Assembly (NCBI RefSeq): GCF_024399335.1
Contig: NZ_CP075339.1
Coordinates: 2,542,001 to 2,606,000, forward strand
Origin: Leucobacter aridicollis
Lineage (GTDB): Bacteria > Actinomycetota > Actinomycetes > Actinomycetales > Microbacteriaceae
Length of the DNA: 64,000 nt
Direction: 5' to 3'
Part shown: in pieces, positions 49,341 to 59,728 of the stretch
How the letters are laid out: every line of letters begins with the position of its first letter
How positions within the stretch are numbered: position 1 is the stretch's first letter
Notes under the pieces: generated by a model
What the model was told of the DNA's origin: nothing
Seen by the model: only the letters and a program-made list of their open reading frames with translations
The model's database searches: none
Made by a program: the position numbers and the translations under genes

Positions 49341-49955
49341 ATGAATGCCGCACCACGCACCACCCGCCGCACACTGTGGGTCGCGATTCGCGCGATGGTG
49401 ATCTTCACCCTCCTGCTCGGCATCGCCTACCCGCTCGCACTCACCGGCATCGGCCAGCTCGCGTTCCCGTGGCAGGCAAACGGCTCGCTGCGAGCCAACG
49501 CAACCGGCGAGGTTGTCGGCTCGGCCCACCTCGGGCAGCAGTTCCTCACTGAAAGCTGCGAACCCGATCCGCAGTTCTTCCAGCCCCGCCCATCCGCAGC
49601 AGGCTACGGCTACGACGGCGCCGCGTCCTCCGGTTCAAACCTTGGGCCCGAAAACCCCGACCTCGTCGCAGCAATCGCCGAACGGCGGGCTGCAGTTGCG
49701 AGGTTCAATGGGGTCACGGAGTCCGAGGTCCCGGCCGATGCCGTGACAGCGTCCTCCTCCGGCCTGGATCCTCATATCAGCGCCGACTACGCCGCCGTGC
49801 AGATCAGCCGAGTCGCGGACGCACGCGGACTCGATCGAAGCGAAGTTCAAAACATCGTACGCGCCCACACGCAGGCCCCAGACCTCGGCTTCCTTGGCGA
49901 GAGTAGGGTGAACGTACTCGAGTTGAATCTGGCGCTCGAACAGTTGCGGAGGTGA
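49341..49955 (+). CDS. kdpC: potassium-transporting ATPase subunit KdpC
   Basis: 204 residues. One N-terminal transmembrane helix (AIRAMVIFTLLLGIAYPLALTGIG) and an extracytoplasmic domain with QANGSLRANATGEVVGSAHLGQ and the conserved PADAVTASSSGLDPHISADYA. KdpC increases the affinity of the complex for ATP. The stop overlaps the GTG alternative start of kdpD. Confidence 0.97.
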   Translation: MNAAPRTTRRTLWVAIRAMVIFTLLLGIAYPLALTGIGQLAFPWQANGSLRANATGEVVGSAHLGQQFLTESCEPDPQFFQPRPSAAGYGYDGAASSGSNLGPENPDLVAAIAERRAAVARFNGVTESEVPADAVTASSSGLDPHISADYAAVQISRVADARGLDRSEVQNIVRAHTQAPDLGFLGESRVNVLELNLALEQLRR

Positions 49956-49957
49956 GC

Positions 49958-52453
49958 ATGGACAAGCGAGGGCGGCTGCGGGTCTTTCTCGGCGCCGCCC
50001 CCGGCGTGGGAAAGACCTTCTCGATGCTCGAAGAGGGAAGACGTCTCCTCGCCGACGGGCGCGACGTCGTCGTCGCCATCGTCGAATCTCACGGACGCGC
50101 AGCGACCGCCGCACTCACCGAAGGCCTCCCCCACATTTCCCGAGCGCGTCTCAGCCACCGCGGCGTTTCCCTCGACGAGATGGACCTCGCCGCGGTACTC
50201 GAACGGCGGCCCGAGATCGCCCTCGTCGACGAACTCGCGCACACAAACGCTCCCGGGGCTGCCAACGAGAAGCGCTGGCAAGATGTCGCAGAACTCCTCG
50301 CGGCGGGCATCGACGTCATCTCAACGCTCAATGTGCAGCACATCGAGTCATTGAACGATGTTGTCGAACAGATCACCGGAGTTCCACAACAGGAGACGGT
50401 GCCAGACAGCTTCCTGCGGGGAGCGGACGAACTCGAGCTCGTCGACCTCGCGCCACAGTCGCTCCGTGACAGGTTGGCCGACGGCTACGTCTACCCGGCC
50501 GAACGTATCGACGCCGCGCTCTCGCACTACTTCAGGCTCGGCAACCTCACCGCGCTTCGCGAACTCGCGCTCGTGTGGCTCGCAGACGAGGTTGACCAGG
50601 CGCTCCGCGGCTACCGCGCCGAGCACGGGATTGACGGCACGTGGGAGGCGCGTGAGCGCGTTGTCGTCGCGCTGACTGGCGGCCCCGAGGGCGACACCCT
50701 CTTGCGTCGCGGTGCACGGATCGCCGCGAGGTCATCTGGCGGCGAGCTGCTCGCGGTACACGTCACGAGTCAAGACGGGCTCAGGAGTGCCGCGCCCGAC
50801 GTGCTCGCGAACCAGCGCGCGCTCGTGGAGAAGCTCAACGGCAGCTACCATCAGGTCGTCGGCGAAGACGTGCCGACGGCGCTCGTCGAATTCGCCAGGT
50901 CCGTGAACGCGACACAGCTCGTGCTCGGAGCGAGCCGCCGCGGCAGGTTCGCCGCCGCCCTCACTGGTCCAGGGATCGGCGCGACGGTGGTGCGGGAGTC
51001 GGGTGAAATCGACGTCCACATGGTCAATCATTCGGCCGCGGCCCGCCGGTTCGCACTGCCGCCACTCACTGGCGCGCTCACGGCGCGTCGACGCATCCTC
51101 GGCTTCGTCGTCGCGCTCGTCGGCGGACCCGTTCTCACATACTTCCTCACGCTCTCACGCAGCCCCGATTCGATCACCGCAGACGTGCTGAGCTATCAGC
51201 TGCTGACTGTCATCGTTGCACTCGTCGGCGGGATCTGGCCTGCCCTCTTCGCCGCCGTGCTTTCGGGGCTCACCCTCGACTATTTCTTCATCGAACCGAT
51301 CTTCACTGTGCACATTCACGAGCCGCTGCACTTGCTGTCGCTCGGCCTGTACGTGATTATTGCGAGCCTCGTCAGCTTCATCGTCGATCGCGCTGCCCGC
51401 CATACGAGGGCCGCCCGCCGATCGGCTGCAGAATCAGAACTGATCCAAACCATCGCGGGCAGTGTCCTCCGCGGTGACGACGCCGCACAGGCACTCGCCG
51501 ATCGCACCCGCGAAGCGTTTCAGCTCGAGGCCGTGCGAGTCGTGCACGAGGGCACCGGGCGGATAGTTGCAGCCTCGGGCGCAGTCATCGACGGCGACAA
51601 ACGCACCCGGGCGGCGCTCGGAGAGCACGCCTGGCTCGAACTCTACGGCCAGCCGCTCGCCGCTGGCGAGCAGCGTCTGCTCTCAGTCGTCGTCGCACAG
51701 CTCTCGGCGGCCCTCGCCCGCCAGGAGCTCGAGGAAACCGCCCGAGAGATCGGTCCGATTGCGGCATCCGACCGTGTACGCGGCGCGCTGCTCACCGCCC
51801 TCAGCCATGACCTCCGTCGCCCACTCGCTGCCGCGACTGCAGCCGTCGGCGGGCTCCGGGCTGCGGGCGCCAGGCTCACGTTCGAAGACCGCGCCGAGCT
51901 TCTCGACACCGCCGAGGAGAGCCTCGGAGCCCTCGGTACGCTGCTCACCGATCTCCTCGACGTGAGCCGTCTGCAGGGCGGCGTACTCAGCATCGCGAAC
52001 CTCCCGACCGACCCAGCAGAAGCGATTGCCCCCGCACTAGACGAGCTTGGACTCGGCCCCAGTGAGGTTCGTCTCGCCCTCGGTCACGGCGAAGGCCGCG
52101 CGAATGCCGACCCTGTGCTGCTGCAGCGCGTGATCGTGAACCTCTTGGCGAACGCACTGCGGCACTCTCCCGCAGGCTCGAGCATCATCGTCAGCACGAG
52201 CGTCTTCGGCGATGTGCTCGAGATTCGTATTATCGATCACGGTCCAGGTGTACCCCGTGACCGGCTCGAAGACATCTTCGTCCCGTTCCAGCGCCTCGGG
52301 GACACAGACAACGAAACAGGGCTCGGCCTTGGGCTTGCGCTCTCGCGTGGCTTCGTCGAGGCGATGGGAGGTACTCTCACACCAGAAGAGACACCGGGAG
52401 GGGGCCTCACAATGGTCGTTGCACTCACACGCCCCGAAGGACACACTGCATGA
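49958..52453 (+). CDS. kdpD: sensor histidine kinase KdpD
   Basis: 831 residues from ATG 49958 with GGAGG just before; GTG 49952 is an alternative. N-terminal KdpD domain with Walker-like GAAPGVGKT (12-20) and the second motif VDELAHTNAPG; a USP domain (about 220-340); four transmembrane helices (about 375-480); GAF-like segment; HisKA with His617 in ALSHDLRR; HATPase with NLLANALRHSPAGS and GLGLGLALSRGFVEAMGG. It senses low K+ or turgor and phosphorylates KdpE. The USP domain binds c-di-AMP in some homologues (family knowledge). Confidence 0.97.
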   Translation: MDKRGRLRVFLGAAPGVGKTFSMLEEGRRLLADGRDVVVAIVESHGRAATAALTEGLPHISRARLSHRGVSLDEMDLAAVLERRPEIALVDELAHTNAPGAANEKRWQDVAELLAAGIDVISTLNVQHIESLNDVVEQITGVPQQETVPDSFLRGADELELVDLAPQSLRDRLADGYVYPAERIDAALSHYFRLGNLTALRELALVWLADEVDQALRGYRAEHGIDGTWEARERVVVALTGGPEGDTLLRRGARIAARSSGGELLAVHVTSQDGLRSAAPDVLANQRALVEKLNGSYHQVVGEDVPTALVEFARSVNATQLVLGASRRGRFAAALTGPGIGATVVRESGEIDVHMVNHSAAARRFALPPLTGALTARRRILGFVVALVGGPVLTYFLTLSRSPDSITADVLSYQLLTVIVALVGGIWPALFAAVLSGLTLDYFFIEPIFTVHIHEPLHLLSLGLYVIIASLVSFIVDRAARHTRAARRSAAESELIQTIAGSVLRGDDAAQALADRTREAFQLEAVRVVHEGTGRIVAASGAVIDGDKRTRAALGEHAWLELYGQPLAAGEQRLLSVVVAQLSAALARQELEETAREIGPIAASDRVRGALLTALSHDLRRPLAAATAAVGGLRAAGARLTFEDRAELLDTAEESLGALGTLLTDLLDVSRLQGGVLSIANLPTDPAEAIAPALDELGLGPSEVRLALGHGEGRANADPVLLQRVIVNLLANALRHSPAGSSIIVSTSVFGDVLEIRIIDHGPGVPRDRLEDIFVPFQRLGDTDNETGLGLGLALSRGFVEAMGGTLTPEETPGGGLTMVVALTRPEGHTA

Positions 52454-53133
52454 AGATCCTCATCGCTGACGACGACCCACAGATCCTGCGCGCACTGCGA
52501 ATCACGCTCACAGCGAAGGGCTACGAAGTTGTTACTGCGGCCGACGGGAAGGATGCGATTGCGGTGGCAATCGATCACGACCCGGATCTGTTGGTGCTCG
52601 ACCTCGGCATGCCGCAGCTCGATGGGCTCGCAGTGATCCAAGCCTTTCGCGGGTGGTCACACGCCCCCATACTTGTCGTTTCGGGTCGGGCAGGAGCCGA
52701 CGACAAGATCGAAGCGCTCGACGCTGGCGCCGACGACTACGTCACGAAACCATTCTCGGTTGGAGAACTGCTCGCGCGCATCAGGGCACTCACCAGGCGC
52801 AGCCCACAGGGCGAGGCCGCACCCACCGCGCGGCTCGGCGCGGTCACCGTCGACCTCGCGGCGCACAGCATCGTGCGCGAGACCCCAACGGGCGACAAAC
52901 AGATCAAGCTCACGCCCACGGAGTGGCAGGTGATTGACATCCTCATCCGCAACATGGGGAAGCTCGTGACTCGACACACACTCCTCACCAGCATCTGGGG
53001 CACCGAACATGCCGAGGACACCGGGTATCTCAGGCTGTACGTCTCGCAGCTGCGCAAGAAGATAGAGGATGACCCAGCTCATCCCGTGCATATTCTCACC
53101 GAGCCCGGCATGGGATACCGGCTCTCGGAGTAA
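52450..53133 (+). CDS. kdpE: response regulator KdpE
   Basis: 227 residues, OmpR/PhoB family. Acidic residues DDD at 7-9, phosphoacceptor Asp51 in LVLDLGMPQLDG, Lys in YVTKPFS, and a C-terminal winged helix (LTPTEWQVIDILIRNMGKLVTR and LRLYVSQLRKKIE). It activates the kdp operon. It overlaps kdpD by ATGA, ending a complete kdpFABCDE unit. A hairpin follows. Confidence 0.97.
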   Translation: MKILIADDDPQILRALRITLTAKGYEVVTAADGKDAIAVAIDHDPDLLVLDLGMPQLDGLAVIQAFRGWSHAPILVVSGRAGADDKIEALDAGADDYVTKPFSVGELLARIRALTRRSPQGEAAPTARLGAVTVDLAAHSIVRETPTGDKQIKLTPTEWQVIDILIRNMGKLVTRHTLLTSIWGTEHAEDTGYLRLYVSQLRKKIEDDPAHPVHILTEPGMGYRLSE

Positions 53134-53182: not shown

Positions 53183-54010
53183 CTAGGCGGAAGCCACGAC
53201 GAGGATCGGATCGCTCGTCGGCGCCCCGGTCGGGGAACCGCCCCGCGCTTCCACCGTCACGGCGACTGCATCGCCGGGCCGAAATCCCGTCGCGATCATG
53301 GCAGTGTCGCTGTCGCCGTCAGCATGCACGACGCCGAGCGAGATAGGGGTTTCCCCCCGCACGATCCACAGCTCAAAGTCCCGCTGGTCGTCGAGACTTG
53401 GCAGTCCCTCGGCCACGAACACCGCTGTTTGCGCAGAGTCCGACCAATGTACGCTCGCCTCGCCCGATTCCCCGAAGGTCGCAGTCGCGACGGCTGCGTC
53501 CGGGGCATCAGCGATCTGCTCAAGCGCGAGCGCAACTGGGTCGTTCGGGAGAAAAAGGTCTCGCGCAAACGGTGTGAGGCTCAACGTGGCCAGCACTGCA
53601 ATTGACGCGGCGAGGGCAAACCAGCCTGCCCACCGTCGAGCTGGCCGAGGAGCGAACTCGTCGCGAACACGACGCTCAGGCTCAGGCAATGCCTCGGCCG
53701 TCCGCCCATCACGGTCGTCGTGTTCGCTTGCACGCCTATCGCCGTGGTTTTCTCCAGATGCGGGGTCTTGCGGAAGGCCCGCAATCGCAGCGAGGATAGC
53801 GTTCCGCGAGGCCTGCGACGGTTCGACCGTGCCAGCGCCAGCGTCTGCGGCCGCTTCACCGAGCGCCGCTGCAACCTCGCGGTCCGCATCAACGATCTCG
53901 CTCCAGCTTGGGTTCGCGGCGAGCGCGGCCGCAAAGGCCTGCTCCTCGTCGGGTGAGAGCGCGTGTAGCGCGCGCCCCGCGGAGAGCACTCGGAACTCTT
54001 GTTCGTTCAT
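53183..54010 (-). CDS. rskA: anti-sigma-K factor RskA
   Basis: 275 residues. N-terminal cytoplasmic anti-sigma part (VLSAGRALHALSPDEEQAF, typical of RskA rather than the His-Cys zinc type), an acidic linker, one transmembrane helix about 128-150 (WAGWFALAASIAVLATLSL), and the extracytoplasmic RskA C-terminal domain (VFVAEGLPSLDDQRDFELWIVRG). It holds SigK until proteolysis, in mycobacteria by Rip1 (family knowledge). It overlaps sigK by ATGA and is downstream of it. Confidence 0.93.
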   Translation of the reverse strand: MNEQEFRVLSAGRALHALSPDEEQAFAAALAANPSWSEIVDADREVAAALGEAAADAGAGTVEPSQASRNAILAAIAGLPQDPASGENHGDRRASEHDDRDGRTAEALPEPERRVRDEFAPRPARRWAGWFALAASIAVLATLSLTPFARDLFLPNDPVALALEQIADAPDAAVATATFGESGEASVHWSDSAQTAVFVAEGLPSLDDQRDFELWIVRGETPISLGVVHADGDSDTAMIATGFRPGDAVAVTVEARGGSPTGAPTSDPILVVASA

Positions 54011-54606
54011 GGCGCCACCTCCAATACTGTTCTCAGTCTCGTCAGCCCGTCTCTCAACCGGGTCTTGATCGTTCCAAGCGGCGTGGCAAGCAGCACCGCG
54101 ATCTCACTCTGGGTGTACCCACCAAAGTAAGCGAGCACGAGCGCCTGCCGTTGAGCCTCTGGCAATTCGGAAAGCCCAGCGACGGCCGCTGAACCGTCAA
54201 TCAAGAGCTCGACCTCCTCCTCGACAGCCGGGCCCGAACTCGCTTGCTCCTTGGCGCCGGCAAGAAGATCTCGGCGACGCGACGCCTGCACCGCACGCAC
54301 CCGGTCTACAGCCCGTCGATGCGCTATGGTCAGCACCCACGCGCGTGCATGCCCACGCTCAGGATCAAACGATGTCGCTCCCTGCCACACCTCAAGGAAC
54401 ACGTCTTGCAAGACTTCTTCGCTCATCGACCGGTCAACGAGCACGCGAAGTATCAGGCGGAAGACCCTCCCGGAGAGCATGTCGTACAGTGCAGCGAAGG
54501 CCTCTCCGTCGCCGGCTGCTGCCCGCACGAGCGCGTCATCGGCAGGATCGGCGCGCTCGCCGTCCTCCGATACTTCCACTCCGTCGATCACCATCTCCCC
54601 TAGCAT
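54007..54606 (-). CDS. sigK: ECF RNA polymerase sigma factor SigK
   Basis: 199 residues from ATG 54606, with GGAGG upstream; the frame continues far upstream without similarity. Region 2 (FAALYDMLSGRVFRLILRVLVD, ...VFLEVWQGATSFDPERGHARAWVLTIAHRRAVDRVR, given here in parts) and region 4 (LPEAQRQALVLAYFGGYTQSEIA, GTIKTRLRDGLTRLR) are clear. Its partner RskA, and the neighbouring dipZ and fasciclin gene, all belong to the SigK regulon of M. tuberculosis, so the orthology is well supported by context. Likely read also from the dipZ promoter. Confidence 0.92.
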   Translation of the reverse strand: MLGEMVIDGVEVSEDGERADPADDALVRAAAGDGEAFAALYDMLSGRVFRLILRVLVDRSMSEEVLQDVFLEVWQGATSFDPERGHARAWVLTIAHRRAVDRVRAVQASRRRDLLAGAKEQASSGPAVEEEVELLIDGSAAVAGLSELPEAQRQALVLAYFGGYTQSEIAVLLATPLGTIKTRLRDGLTRLRTVLEVAP

Positions 54607-54703
54607 GACGCATTCACCTCCGTTCGTCGTGCTGTGTGACCCTGCGAGTCGCCTCGCGAGCAACTGCTCCGCGTGTTCGTTGACGCAAGCGCTCGCACGA
54701 GCG

Positions 54704-56431
54704 CTACCCAAACGTGAATGAGTAGACCTCAATACCCGTCGGGACCTGCAGTTCAAGTGCCCCTTCCGAAGCATCGCCGGGTTCAACCAAGCGATAGGAC
54801 TGCGGAGTACCACCAACAGCGACTGTCCGAACGCCACCACCTGGGAGCGTGACTGTGAGTTCGCCGTCCCCAGCCACAACCACCCTCACCTCTGACCCGC
54901 GGTAGTTGAGCCGCACGGCCGCGGGCTCACCCGCGTTCGATAGCGGTGTCGCGTATTGGGTCTGGATGTCCCATGCACCTGCAAGGGCGAACGTGTCCGG
55001 GCCCTGTTTGGCCGGAAAATCGAACGTTCCCTCGCCCGGCCCGTACCTGCCAGCCCCTGCGTAGTTGTGGTCTTTTGCAGAACCGAGGAATGTCTCGGGG
55101 GTGGTGCTCCCGTTCTTGGGCGTGACGTCGCTCGTGTTGGTGGTGGCCGGGAGATCGACATCGGAATCTGCTTCAAAGAGTAGCTCGCGGATTAAGCGTT
55201 CGGTGGTCTCGTAGTTTCCTTCACCAAACGAAATGTGGCGCACCGTACCCGTGGCGTCGATCAGGTAGTGGGCCGGCCAATAGCGGTTACGGTATTTGGT
55301 CCAGGTCGCAAGACTGTTGTCGAGGGCGACCGGGTACTCGATCTCAAATTTGTTCGCCCCAGCCTCAACGTTGCTGGCGTCCTTCTCGAACGCGTACTCG
55401 GGCGAGTGCACGCCAATCACCCGCAACCCAGCATCACGGTAGGCCCGATCCCACGCGACAACGTGCGGGATCGAGCGTTGGCAGTTGATGCACGAGTAGG
55501 CCCAGAAGTCGACGAGCACAACGTTACCCCGGAGGTCGTCGAGGTCGACCGGAGCCCCGCCCTCAGTGTTCAGCCACGCCTCGATGCCGAAGAGCGCTGG
55601 CGCGGTACCGCACGAGCGAAGCTCCTCGGCGTTGGCTGCACAGTTGTCAAGCTCCCGGTTCTCATCAGTGACCAAGCCACCCAGACTGAGCGTGCGCTCG
55701 GCGGCGTCGCTTCCGGCGAGCTGTTGTTGGAGCCCAGCCGTGTAGTCCGGCACGAGACGCTGGAGCGCCTGCGGCACATCGAACGCGAGACCAGCGGCAA
55801 GCGCGATCAGCGCGATCCCGCCGGCGATCCGGATGCCGCGTTCGCGTCGCCTGAAGCCCCGAATTCGCTGCGCGACGCTACTCCCCGCGAGCGCAAACAC
55901 GAGTAACGGTACTGCGACGCCAATCGCAAACGACACCGTAAGAAGCACCGTGTCTGGGCCGATCGAACCTGTGGCTCCCGCGACGATGATCGCGGCAAGC
56001 ACCGGCCCGGCGCACGGCACAAACACCGTGCCGAGGGCGAGCCCCATACCAAATCCGTTTCCGCCATCGCCGACCTTGCGACGCGGCAACCGCTGAAACG
56101 GCTTCTCAAGCAGTTGCTCGAACCCTGGAAACAGCATCCCTACTCCGATAACCAACAGCACCGCAACGCCCACCCACCGAATGGCGGTCGGCGGGATGTG
56201 GAGCAGGCCGAGCAGCAGGGAACCAATCAGGGTGACCACGGAAAAACTCAACACGAGTCCACCAATGATCCAGAATGGCCTGCTGCGTTTGGCGGGAATG
56301 ACCACAGGCGCCTTGCCGGGACCTGCCTGCGTTGCGCCGGCTGTGAGGAAGATCACTGGGAGTACCGGGAGGATGCACGGTGATATTCCCGTGATGAGCC
56401 CGCCGAGTAGTCCAATAAGCACTGTGTCCAT
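54704..56431 (-). CDS. dipZ: DipZ-type cytochrome c biogenesis/thioredoxin fusion protein
   Basis: 575 residues. An N-terminal CcdA/DsbD membrane domain of six to eight helices has the paired redox cysteines in GISPCILPVLP (Cys19) and VPCAGPVL; then an extracytoplasmic TlpA-like thioredoxin domain with Cys314-x-x-Cys317 (SCINC), and a C-terminal beta-sandwich as in M. tuberculosis DipZ. It carries reductant across the membrane to disulfides outside. It precedes sigK by 97 bp on the same strand and shares a SigK-like promoter with the divergent fasciclin gene. Confidence 0.93.
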   Translation of the reverse strand: MDTVLIGLLGGLITGISPCILPVLPVIFLTAGATQAGPGKAPVVIPAKRSRPFWIIGGLVLSFSVVTLIGSLLLGLLHIPPTAIRWVGVAVLLVIGVGMLFPGFEQLLEKPFQRLPRRKVGDGGNGFGMGLALGTVFVPCAGPVLAAIIVAGATGSIGPDTVLLTVSFAIGVAVPLLVFALAGSSVAQRIRGFRRRERGIRIAGGIALIALAAGLAFDVPQALQRLVPDYTAGLQQQLAGSDAAERTLSLGGLVTDENRELDNCAANAEELRSCGTAPALFGIEAWLNTEGGAPVDLDDLRGNVVLVDFWAYSCINCQRSIPHVVAWDRAYRDAGLRVIGVHSPEYAFEKDASNVEAGANKFEIEYPVALDNSLATWTKYRNRYWPAHYLIDATGTVRHISFGEGNYETTERLIRELLFEADSDVDLPATTNTSDVTPKNGSTTPETFLGSAKDHNYAGAGRYGPGEGTFDFPAKQGPDTFALAGAWDIQTQYATPLSNAGEPAAVRLNYRGSEVRVVVAGDGELTVTLPGGGVRTVAVGGTPQSYRLVEPGDASEGALELQVPTGIEVYSFTFG

Positions 56432-56495
56432 GAGCCGCTCCCCTTTCTGTCTCTGTGACGCGAGACGTCGCCGTGAAGTGAGTTGTCACAGAGGT

Positions 56496-56522
56496 GTTCG
56501 GAGCCACGGACTACGCGGATTG
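56496..56522 (-). promoter_or_regulatory. SigK-type promoter of dipZ (CAATCC-N15-CCGAAC)
   Basis: On the minus strand, -35 CAATCC (56522-56517) and -10 CCGAAC (56501-56496) are separated by 15 bp, about 60 bp before the dipZ ATG. The same two boxes with the same spacing occur on the plus strand before the fasciclin gene. The mycobacterial SigK consensus is CCATCC and CCGAAT with a similar spacing (from memory). Confidence 0.75.
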
Positions 56523-56567
56523 CTGCTAGCCCTTTCGCACCGACGAAAAAATTCTTTTCACAATTTC

Positions 56568-56594
56568 CAATCCGATGATCGGGCGACTCCGAAC
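56568..56594 (+). promoter_or_regulatory. SigK-type promoter of the fasciclin gene (CAATCC-N15-CCGAAC)
   Basis: -35 CAATCC at 56568-56573 and -10 CCGAAC at 56589-56594, 15-bp spacer, 50 bp before the ATG. Identical in both boxes and spacing to the divergent dipZ promoter. Confidence 0.78.
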
Positions 56595-56644
56595 AACCCA
56601 ATAAGCCGCGAAAATCCGCGGAACAACGTTCGAAGGAGCAACCC

Positions 56645-57304
56645 ATGTTCACCAAGAAGAAGACTCTCGGCACTGCGTTCGCACTCACGCTCGTCGCGGC
56701 CGCAGCGCTCACCGGATGCTCGATGGATTCAGCGGAGCCAGAGAAGGCCCCGTCGACCGAACAGTCGGGGCCGAGTGAGACCGAGCAGCAAATGGATCCC
56801 GCTGCGAATCTCGTCGGAACCGGCTGCGCCGCATACGCCGAAGCAGTGCCGTCCGGCGCGGGCTCAATTGTCGGCATGTCTCAGGATCCAGTCGCCGTTG
56901 CGGCGTCGAATAATCCCTTGCTCACCACGCTCGTCGCCGCAGTGAGCGGCGGCCTGAACCCTGACGTCGACCTCGTCGACACGCTGAACAGCGACGAGTT
57001 CACGGTGTTCGCCCCCGTTGACGACGCTTTTGCCAAGGTCGATTCGGCAACGATCGACACGCTGAAGACCGACAGTGAGATGCTCTCGTCAATCCTCACC
57101 TACCACGTAGTGCCCGGCCAGATCGAGCCAGCCGACATCGCCGGCACGCACACAACAGTCAACGGTGCCGAACTCACGGTGACTGGTGAGGGCGACGCTT
57201 TGAAGGTGAACGACGCAAACGTGATCTGTGGCGGCGTACAGACCGCCAACGCTGTCGTCTATCTCGTTGACAGCGTTCTCCTGCCTCCGGCGACCGAGAA
57301 GTAG
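56645..57304 (+). CDS. fasciclin-domain lipoprotein (MPT70/MPT83-like)
   Basis: 219 residues; lipoprotein signal with lipobox LTGC (Cys25), a Ser/Glu/Gln-rich linker, then one fasciclin (FAS1) domain with the H1 block [14 protein letters not shown], and YHVVPGQI and the C-terminal [12 protein letters not shown]. Cys61 and Cys195 probably form the disulfide known in MPT70, which would connect it to DipZ next door. It is a membrane-anchored surface protein, likely for adhesion. Strong ribosome site (GAAGGAG). Confidence 0.93.
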
Positions 57305-57703: not shown

Positions 57704-59728
57704 ATGCCACACTCCACCCGCCTCGGAGGCTTCCTCGCTGCGACGCTTGCAGCCTCCACACTCGCGATCGCACCCGGTGCCGCGCAGGCGGTGCAGGACC
57801 CGCTCCCCGACGGCAAGGCTGAGGCGAGCGGAGAGTACGGCCTCATCGGCGACAGCCTTGAAACCATCCCCAACATCTACGGCGTCACGATCGACGATGC
57901 CGGGAGCATCTGGTACGCAGTCACCGATGGCGCATCGCGCGGCATCACCGAGTACCGGCCGGGCACGCTCGACCCGAACGCAGGCGACTACCTCGGCAAC
58001 GGCGAGTACGCGGACGGAACCGGCTACCTTGGCGCTGGCTGGAACGCCCCGCTGCACTACGCGAACCGAGATTCCGGCCGCGACAGTCCAGCTGGCGGCA
58101 CCGAGCCATGGGCAGAGCCGCGCGGCATCGAGGCTCTCCCTGGCGGCGGCATCGCCGTCTCAGACACCAACGGCAACGTCTCGACGCCTACAGGCACGAT
58201 CCTGTTCTACGACGAAGGCCACACGGTCATCGGCAACGCTGGCGTCGGCGGCGACCAGGGATGCACCCAGCTCGCCGAGGGTGAGCTGGCATGGGGACCC
58301 TACTTCACCGTGCTCGACGACAAGCTCTACGCCCCCTACGAAGGTTGCAACGTCGTCAGTGTCTTTTCAGTGCCAGACGGCGAACCGCTCCACCGGCTCA
58401 CCGGCGAGGGCCAGACAGCAGGGGCATCCCCCAACCCCGCCGCGACCAACGGGCCAGGCGGGCTGAGCGACATCTACGGAGTGTCCACGGACGGCCTGTC
58501 AATCTACACAACCGACCTCGGGTACAACAGGAGTCCAGGCGCTGGCATGGTGCAGCGATGGACCCTCACCGACGACGGATCCGACTGGCAGCTCGACCAC
58601 ACGTTCGCGGAAGACGGCGCGCTGAGCTTCCCGGAGGTCATGATGTACAACACGGTCATCGGACCAGCGAATGGCCTGTACACGATTCCGCAGAGCGGCC
58701 CGGTGCAGCGGTTCACGCACGCCGGCGAGTACGTCGCAGACGTGCAGGTGCGTGACGTGCCGTATACCTCGGCGCGCGATCTCGCGATCACGGAGGAGGG
58801 CTGGATCGTGATGACAGCGAAAGGCGAACACAGCCTCCGCATTCTCGCGGAGAGCCCCTCGCCAGTGTCTGGGCTCGCCGGCACGACTGGTGCCGCCGCG
58901 GGAACCGTCGAGCTGTCATGGGATGCGGTTGAAACTACCTACGGTCAGGCGCCCGTACTCGACTACGTCATCGAGCGCTCTCACGACGGCGGGGCGACCT
59001 GGCAGGCAATCGAACGAGACGTCAGCCTCAGCACCACTGCGACGATCGACGGTCTCGCACCCGGCGCATACGACTTCCGCGTGAGCGCGTACAGCGAGGC
59101 CGGCAGGGGCGACAGTGCGATCGTTGACGCTGTTGTTGCGGCCGATGCAGCGCCCGCTGTCGCAACAACGCTCACCGGGACGGCTCCTGAGGTGACCGCA
59201 CTCGGCGCGGGCGTGACGTGGGAAGCGACGATCACCAATCCAGGCAATACGCCGCTCGCTGACGTCGCCGCAGTGTTTGAGGGTGACACTGACGGCGTGG
59301 CTAAGACCGTCGCGGTCGGTGACCTTGAGGTGGGCGAGTCGACGCGGGTCGAGATCGTCACGCCATTGACCGAGGCACATCTCGCGGACCTCACGGCTGC
59401 GAACTCCGTCTCTGTGGTCGGGGTCGCACCCGACGGCACGGCAGTCACCGCCTTGGCGGCGGCGCAGGTTGAGCTCGCTGAGGTTCCGGATCCAGATCCC
59501 ACCGATCCAGACCCCACCGATCCAGATCCCACGAACCCCGCCCCCACCGGCCCGACGGCCCCCGGCACTGGCGGCGACGGCTCGGGCACTCATCCGACCC
59601 CGAAAGGCGGCGCTAACGCGCTGGCACAGAGCGGCTCTAGCGTACCGGCCAGCCTGGCAGTTGGCGCGGCCCTCGTCGCCGCGGGCGCGATGTGGCTCCT
59701 CGCGCGGAAGCGCCGCACGACAGCCTAG
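57704..59728 (+). CDS. wall-anchored beta-propeller / fibronectin type III surface protein
   Basis: 674 residues. Signal peptide with cleavage near AQAVQD; about 350 residues with repeated YGVT..IWYAVTDG / GGIAVSDTNG / IYGVSTDGLSIYTTDLG units suggest a beta-propeller; an FnIII domain (about 390-480); a CARDB-like beta domain; a Pro-Thr-Asp-rich spacer with DPDPT repeats; and a C-terminal sorting signal LAQSG, hydrophobic helix and RKRR tail. LAQSG resembles the LAxTG motif used by actinobacterial class E sortases. It is expected to be covalently attached to the wall. The ligand is unknown. Confidence 0.85.
   Translation: MPHSTRLGGFLAATLAASTLAIAPGAAQAVQDPLPDGKAEASGEYGLIGDSLETIPNIYGVTIDDAGSIWYAVTDGASRGITEYRPGTLDPNAGDYLGNGEYADGTGYLGAGWNAPLHYANRDSGRDSPAGGTEPWAEPRGIEALPGGGIAVSDTNGNVSTPTGTILFYDEGHTVIGNAGVGGDQGCTQLAEGELAWGPYFTVLDDKLYAPYEGCNVVSVFSVPDGEPLHRLTGEGQTAGASPNPAATNGPGGLSDIYGVSTDGLSIYTTDLGYNRSPGAGMVQRWTLTDDGSDWQLDHTFAEDGALSFPEVMMYNTVIGPANGLYTIPQSGPVQRFTHAGEYVADVQVRDVPYTSARDLAITEEGWIVMTAKGEHSLRILAESPSPVSGLAGTTGAAAGTVELSWDAVETTYGQAPVLDYVIERSHDGGATWQAIERDVSLSTTATIDGLAPGAYDFRVSAYSEAGRGDSAIVDAVVAADAAPAVATTLTGTAPEVTALGAGVTWEATITNPGNTPLADVAAVFEGDTDGVAKTVAVGDLEVGESTRVEIVTPLTEAHLADLTAANSVSVVGVAPDGTAVTALAAAQVELAEVPDPDPTDPDPTDPDPTNPAPTGPTAPGTGGDGSGTHPTPKGGANALAQSGSSVPASLAVGAALVAAGAMWLLARKRRTTA
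59489..59533 (+). repeat. three tandem 15-bp repeats coding DPDPT
   Basis: GATCCAGATCCCACC, GATCCAGACCCCACC and GATCCAGATCCCACG in a row (59489-59503, 59504-59518, 59519-59533). They form the spacer before the wall-sorting signal and may vary in number between strains. Confidence 0.88.

Follow-up and report, generated by a model that had tools for sequence, protein, structure and literature searches.

A self-contained SigK-RskA regulon predicted at a single locus of Leucobacter aridicollis

In Leucobacter aridicollis, genes for a sigma factor, an anti-sigma factor, a DipZ protein and a fasciclin lipoprotein lie side by side, and two identical promoter-like boxes face away from each other in their midst. 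Does this locus form a self-contained regulon of the kind known from Mycobacterium tuberculosis, and is its arrangement special? We addressed this question in a window of 64,000 nucleotides, the whole stretch of DNA that was analysed; positions given here are those of the window. The four genes are the following.

53183-54010, minus strand: rskA, membrane anti-sigma factor, 275 aa (RskA_C, NF052375)
54007-54606, minus strand: sigK, ECF sigma factor, 199 aa, zero cysteines (4nqw, NCBIfam SigK)
54704-56431, minus strand: dipZ, 575 aa, with a CcdA-type membrane domain followed by thioredoxin-like and C-terminal domains in one protein (DsbD_TM, AhpC-TSA and Thioredoxin_10 of Pfam, 2hyx)
56645-57304, plus strand: gene of an MPT70/MPT83-like fasciclin lipoprotein, 219 aa (Pfam Fasciclin, 1nyo; lipobox LTGC read from the sequence)

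The first-pass annotation had named these four neighbours, and their identities are confirmed by Pfam, NCBIfam and solved-structure matches. The minus-strand order is, from right to left, dipZ, sigK and rskA, and the fasciclin gene runs in the opposite direction. The best solved-structure match of SigK is M. tuberculosis SigK (4nqw, E = 1.2e-39, followed by a match at 5.2e-23). Its best NCBIfam model is SigK, with 219.7 bits for a model cut-off of 226, which is an annotation threshold and not a defining trait. It is the single close SigK of the genome, the next sigma factor matches being 32% and 29% identical. Directly downstream of sigK, rskA encodes a clear C-terminal domain (Pfam RskA_C, 76.3 bits for a cut-off of 29.4) and matches the NCBIfam anti-sigma factor model NF052375 (122.3 bits, cut-off 100). 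The membrane helix of RskA was judged by eye, and phmmer gave zero matches for this protein in the PDB. DipZ has M. tuberculosis DipZ as its best solved-structure match (2hyx, E = 8.7e-111) and is 71-77% identical to the DipZ of 13 Leucobacter loci. Finally, the fasciclin protein, encoded by the single fasciclin gene of the genome, scores 101.7 bits with Pfam Fasciclin and best matches MPT70 (1nyo, E = 3.4e-64) over residues 55-216, with both cysteines aligned.

The start of rskA and the stop of sigK overlap by 4 nt (ATGA), and the 97-bp gap between dipZ and sigK contains zero sites in the terminator scan (the three sites found elsewhere were not above shuffles). Given this overlap and this gap, dipZ, sigK and rskA are likely read as one transcript. 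A sigma-70 scan of the same 97 bp found no promoter; a separate sigK promoter may lie there. On one side of the locus, positions 49952-53133 hold an 833-aa ORF resembling, by eye, a KdpD-type sensor kinase, then an OmpR-type response regulator. On the other side, positions 57704-59728 encode a 674-aa protein with a fibronectin type III domain and a C-terminus resembling a sorting signal (weak NCBIfam LAXTG match, below cut-off).

Two predicted promoters occupy the 213-bp gap between dipZ and the fasciclin gene.

56496-56522, minus strand: predicted SigK-type promoter of dipZ, probably of dipZ-sigK-rskA; -35 CAATCC at 56517-56522, -10 CCGAAC at 56496-56501 (sequence; kept in relatives)
56568-56594, plus strand: predicted SigK-type promoter of the fasciclin gene; -35 CAATCC at 56568-56573, -10 CCGAAC at 56589-56594 (sequence; kept in relatives)

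The identical CAATCC-N15-CCGAAC boxes, back to back on opposite strands, are thus present as first described; the spacer measures 15 in both, with a different sequence in each. Scanning the 3,604,182 bases of the genome for CAATCC-N14-16-CCGAAC returned exactly 2 sites, both in this gap, and 1 for the motif read backwards as a control. If bases were independent, the CAATCC/CCGAAC form would be expected about 1.4 times per genome and 7e-5 times in the gap. The claim that such an exact repeat is unlikely by chance stands in one respect, two sites in one 213-bp gap being far beyond chance, but not for the genome-wide number, which is not unusual. The family consensus learned from relatives, CMATCCR-N15-CGAAB, has 3 matches in the 3.60-Mb genome (backwards-read control, 1; base composition predicts 5.1), namely the twin boxes and one site inside a 542-aa open frame. 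Since the counts in the genome itself do not exceed the prediction from base composition, the argument draws its strength from the occurrence of two sites in a single gap and from the relatives.

With this consensus, the direct SigK regulon is predicted to comprise the dipZ/fasciclin locus only, and weaker sites could be missed. A wider regulon, sought with exact matches to CMATCC-N14-17-CCGAAY, was rejected, as 9 sites were found for 8.0 predicted by base composition (backwards-read control, 1). None of the 7 sites outside the locus is convincingly upstream of a gene: 6 fall within open frames of 198-753 aa, and the seventh (L117) sits immediately beyond a 483-aa frame, from which it faces away, about 580 bp before the next frame of that strand. 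Allowing two mismatches gave 278 sites for 127 in the control, too many for use.

Relatives were taken as the best 80 of 394 from a DipZ scan (Leucobacter, Microbacterium, Demequina and a few others); being selected via DipZ, they are uninformative on relatives that lack dipZ. In 76 of the 80, dipZ and the fasciclin gene diverge. The others have no fasciclin match (L024 and L037, the latter at a contig end) or a different gene order (L076 and L078). At least 11 of the 12 motif positions are matched on both sides in 73 of these 76 gaps, the failing ones being L034, L067 and L079; the reversed motif reaches this level in 0/76. The spacing is 15 in 146 of the 152 best sites, ties being assigned to 15. 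The hexamers vary (CAATCC/CCATCC; CCGAAC/T/G or GCGAAC) even within a single genus: on the dipZ side, mostly CAATCC is found with GCGAAC, CCGAAG, CCGAAT or CCGAAC, and on the fasciclin side, mostly CCATCC or CAATCC with CCGAAC. Both sides have the same hexamers in 10 of the 76 relatives, and the exact CAATCC/CCGAAC form stands on both sides in none. Given this variability, the proposal that these boxes give the SigK promoter a form specific to the lineage has to be abandoned: the motif is degenerate and precedes fasciclin genes order-wide. The hexamer identity in L. aridicollis looks like a chance outcome within this degeneracy. As a separate observation, GCGAAC is the -10 box of 33/76 dipZ promoters and of 9/76 fasciclin promoters (CCGAAC in 42/76), a difference hinting at conserved unequal strengths of the twin promoters.

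The position of sigK in these loci bears on which sigma factor would read the boxes. In 59 of the 76 divergent loci it comes after dipZ and reads in the same direction, and in two (L081 and L082) it is close by on the other strand. In the remaining 15, no sigK was found in the stretch examined: 12 Demequina-type loci that have the twin motif, the Leifsonia MAG L079, and L065 and L077, which both end just after dipZ. The motif kept without an adjacent sigK in Demequina, together with the two further ECF-like matches of the L. aridicollis genome at 32% and 29% identity, would suit boxes that are real promoters of another ECF sigma factor in the same genome. We consider this improbable, because the motif agrees with the consensus of SigK promoters, CCATCC-N15/16-CCGAAT, and because sigK follows dipZ in those 59 loci. 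A genome-wide search covering 11 of the 12 Demequina-type loci and the Leifsonia MAG found SigK-like proteins elsewhere in all 12 genomes, with best E-values from 3.7e-53 (Leifsonia MAG) to 3.7e-37; the best ones of the 11 Demequina-type genomes are 41-48% identical. The pairing of sigma factor and promoter is assumed for these genomes. If the remote SigK-like proteins are the partners, SigK in Demequina would act on targets far from its own gene, as it does in M. tuberculosis. The twin boxes of L. aridicollis are best read as SigK promoters, which they almost certainly are given the motif on both sides of 73 of the 76 related gaps.

Published work reports strong conservation of SigK sites across Actinobacteria and recognition of the mpt70 promoter by SigK orthologues (PMC7509140). 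We surveyed 248 genomes of the order, with counts uncorrected for relatedness. SigK was found in 156 of them at E <= 1e-30, a threshold at which some matches may be paralogues, an MPT70-like gene in 119 at E <= 1e-10, and both genes in 115. In keeping with the regulon, SigK occurs in 115/119 genomes that have the MPT70-like gene and in 41/129 of the others (again uncorrected). Upstream stretches were examined in 39 of the 119 genomes, hand-picked across families. The motif, at 11 or more of 12 positions, stands upstream of the fasciclin gene in 31 of 35 genomes with SigK and in two of four without; no reversed control exceeded 10, and 18 of 780 shuffles reached 11 and none 12. Among the counted sites, that of G228 stands some 600 bp before the fasciclin gene and could belong to a different one. 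Two genomes, G031 and G159, have the MPT70-like gene, no SigK at 1e-30 and no motif. In G029, a SigK-like protein encoded elsewhere falls just over the threshold (3.1e-30), and none is found beside the fasciclin gene. In G181 (L202), where no sigma factor is better than 5.3e-10, the motif precedes a truncated fasciclin frame and is possibly a decaying remnant.

As for the layout, sigK is no more than 7 kb from the fasciclin gene in at least 66 of 118 genomes (L. aridicollis excluded), among them at least 38 with fasciclin then sigK on one strand, at least 15 divergent, at least 7 convergent and at least 6 with sigK first. Among the matches listed, all 14 sampled Microbacteriaceae genomes with both genes have them divergent and within 7 kb. 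In 8 of these 14, less than 500 bp separate sigK from the fasciclin gene, which leaves no room for dipZ between them; the L. aridicollis layout is hence one of two in the family. The closeness of sigK and fasciclin gene, contrasted in the first-pass annotation with M. tuberculosis, turns out to be the family norm, and related cassettes were already published.

The variation among relatives also bears on two further rivals. The boxes, on opposite strands in one gap, could be one operator, an inverted repeat on which a dimeric regulator controls both genes. This is very unlikely: the two -35 boxes are anywhere from 32 to 273 bp apart in 12 Leucobacter relatives, where each promoter keeps its 15-bp spacing, and fasciclin genes in other parts of the order also have the box upstream. 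A recent duplication of one promoter, which the identical hexamers of L. aridicollis could suggest, is hardly credible, being contradicted by the differing spacers, by the presence of both promoters in Leucobacter, Microbacterium and Demequina and by hexamers that vary apart in all but those 10 relatives. Overall, we put at roughly 90% the probability that the locus is a self-contained SigK-RskA regulon of the M. tuberculosis kind, in one Microbacteriaceae layout.

In such a regulon, RskA would hold SigK at the membrane until an outside signal frees it, probably via cleavage of RskA. Freed SigK would then start transcription at the two back-to-back promoters. The leftward product, dipZ-sigK-rskA, would be both an output and a feedback on its own switch. 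The rightward output would be the fasciclin lipoprotein, and DipZ may help maintain its disulfide. In M. tuberculosis, sigK is autoregulated, and RskA holds SigK in the form with a disulfide between C133 and C183; this cysteine pair is reported in 56% of ECF19 proteins (PMC7509140), so that its loss as such was already known. L. aridicollis SigK has Gly144 and Val194 at these positions, according to the 4nqw alignment, and no cysteine anywhere. We compared 66 SigK proteins, those of L. aridicollis and of 65 loci whose SigK match reached 150 bits or more. Both positions are occupied by other residues in 62 of the 66, L. aridicollis included; the first cysteine only is found in L008 and L012, and both only in L081 and L082. 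No cysteine at all occurs in 60 of the 66, and the pair is found in none of the compared Leucobacter and Microbacterium SigK. Because L. aridicollis SigK has no redox cysteines, we infer that the signal must come through RskA, which makes RskA cleavage the probable route.

Downstream of the fasciclin -10 box, an alignment of 13 gaps (L. aridicollis and 12 Leucobacter) revealed a GC-rich inverted repeat.

56606-56621, plus strand: 5'-end stem-loop of the fasciclin message, a few bases past the expected transcription start; CCGCG, 6-nt loop, CGCGG (fold, relatives)
56633-56638, plus strand: ribosome-binding site AAGGAG of the fasciclin gene, outside the hairpin (read from the sequence)

Of 77 fasciclin leaders, 63 have a stem of 5 or more pairs that begins 8-15 bases past the -10 box, versus 19.2% of shuffles; among the dipZ leaders, such a stem is found in 1 of 77 and is rarer than in shuffles (16.4%). 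Stems of at least 6 pairs occur in 41 of the 77 fasciclin leaders, versus 6.9% of shuffles. In the wider order the signal is weaker: of 33 leaders with the motif at 11 or more, 12 have the stem (shuffles 17.5%) and 8 have at least 6 pairs (shuffles 6.0%). Covariation was evaluated on 72 of the 77 leaders; L056, L065, L079, L081 and L082 were left out, and as four of these five are stemless, their omission favours the hairpin. Paired cells amount to 80.7%, versus 28.8-63.9% for slid partners. The covariation score is 0.176 versus 0.146, with 4 of 500 shuffles as high, and two-sided pair changes number 5 versus 3.5 (41/500 shuffles); the commonest, G-C to A-U at pair 23-37, comes, by eye, mostly from one Microbacterium group. 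Further pair types show no excess (13 versus 12.3; 206/500 shuffles), and RNAalifold predicts just 3 pairs from the 72-leader alignment. Pairing in the predicted hairpin is therefore supported by position and sliding, and weakly by compensation. Positions 56601-56632 fold at -8.9 kcal/mol (z -1.90) and the L043 leader folds into the same hairpin (z -2.41); the 50 bases examined in L060 prefer a different fold (z -1.01). The hairpin has no Rfam match.

The hairpin leaves the ribosome-binding site uncovered, which argues for an effect on message stability rather than on translation; protecting 5'-end stems are known on other messages. We tentatively propose, at somewhat less than even odds, that, in Microbacteriaceae and Demequina, the fasciclin messages starting at SigK promoters carry a purpose-built, promoter-anchored 5' stem-loop, which begins about 10-12 bases past the -10 box, hence around +4 of the RNA, and is absent from the sister dipZ message. 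As a stabilising cap, it would let the lipoprotein message outlast that of the regulatory operon, so that one sigma factor would give two output levels from twin promoters. The literature searched describes no leader hairpin for mpt70, the sole mention of mpt70 found in the excerpts not being about its leader; the hairpin may be the one new feature here.

How does the locus compare with known systems? Like the M. tuberculosis regulon (mpt70, mpt83, dipZ), it combines the SigK-RskA pair with the same two hallmark kinds of target, the same promoter form and, as a prediction, autoregulation. It differs in having everything in one locus, a SigK without cysteines at the C133/C183 positions and a single fasciclin gene, with a lipobox. 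In Yersinia enterocolitica, an mpt83-sigK-rskA minimal cassette is described (Veyrier 2008, as cited in PMC7509140), in which, likewise, the fasciclin gene adjoins sigK-rskA and has a SigK site upstream; the excerpted description mentions no dipZ, whereas in L. aridicollis dipZ lies in between and the fasciclin gene is divergent. For Corynebacterium pseudotuberculosis, the excerpt lists anti-sigma factor, sigK and dipZ together, as here (cskE-sigK-dipZ; PMC3078919), but no fasciclin gene, which L. aridicollis has. For the genera studied here, the literature searched yielded one Microbacteriaceae paper, on Leifsonia xyli rskA, with no mention of dipZ or a fasciclin gene in its excerpt, and others may exist. 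Such clusters are common in Microbacteriaceae and not new, and that of L. aridicollis is a typical, well-formed example of the SigK-RskA family.

From its sequence, the locus most likely combines, in one small cluster, a switch responding to stress with the pair of envelope genes under its control. It would represent a complete single-locus regulon outside mycobacteria, with the sigma factor and its anti-sigma factor, the two targets and the two predicted promoters in about four kilobases, and a counterpart of the regulon studied in the tuberculosis bacillus. Its cysteine-free SigK separates signalling through RskA from the redox switch of SigK, and its leader hairpin, should it prove functional, would add another level of control to a gene of the MPT70/83 type.
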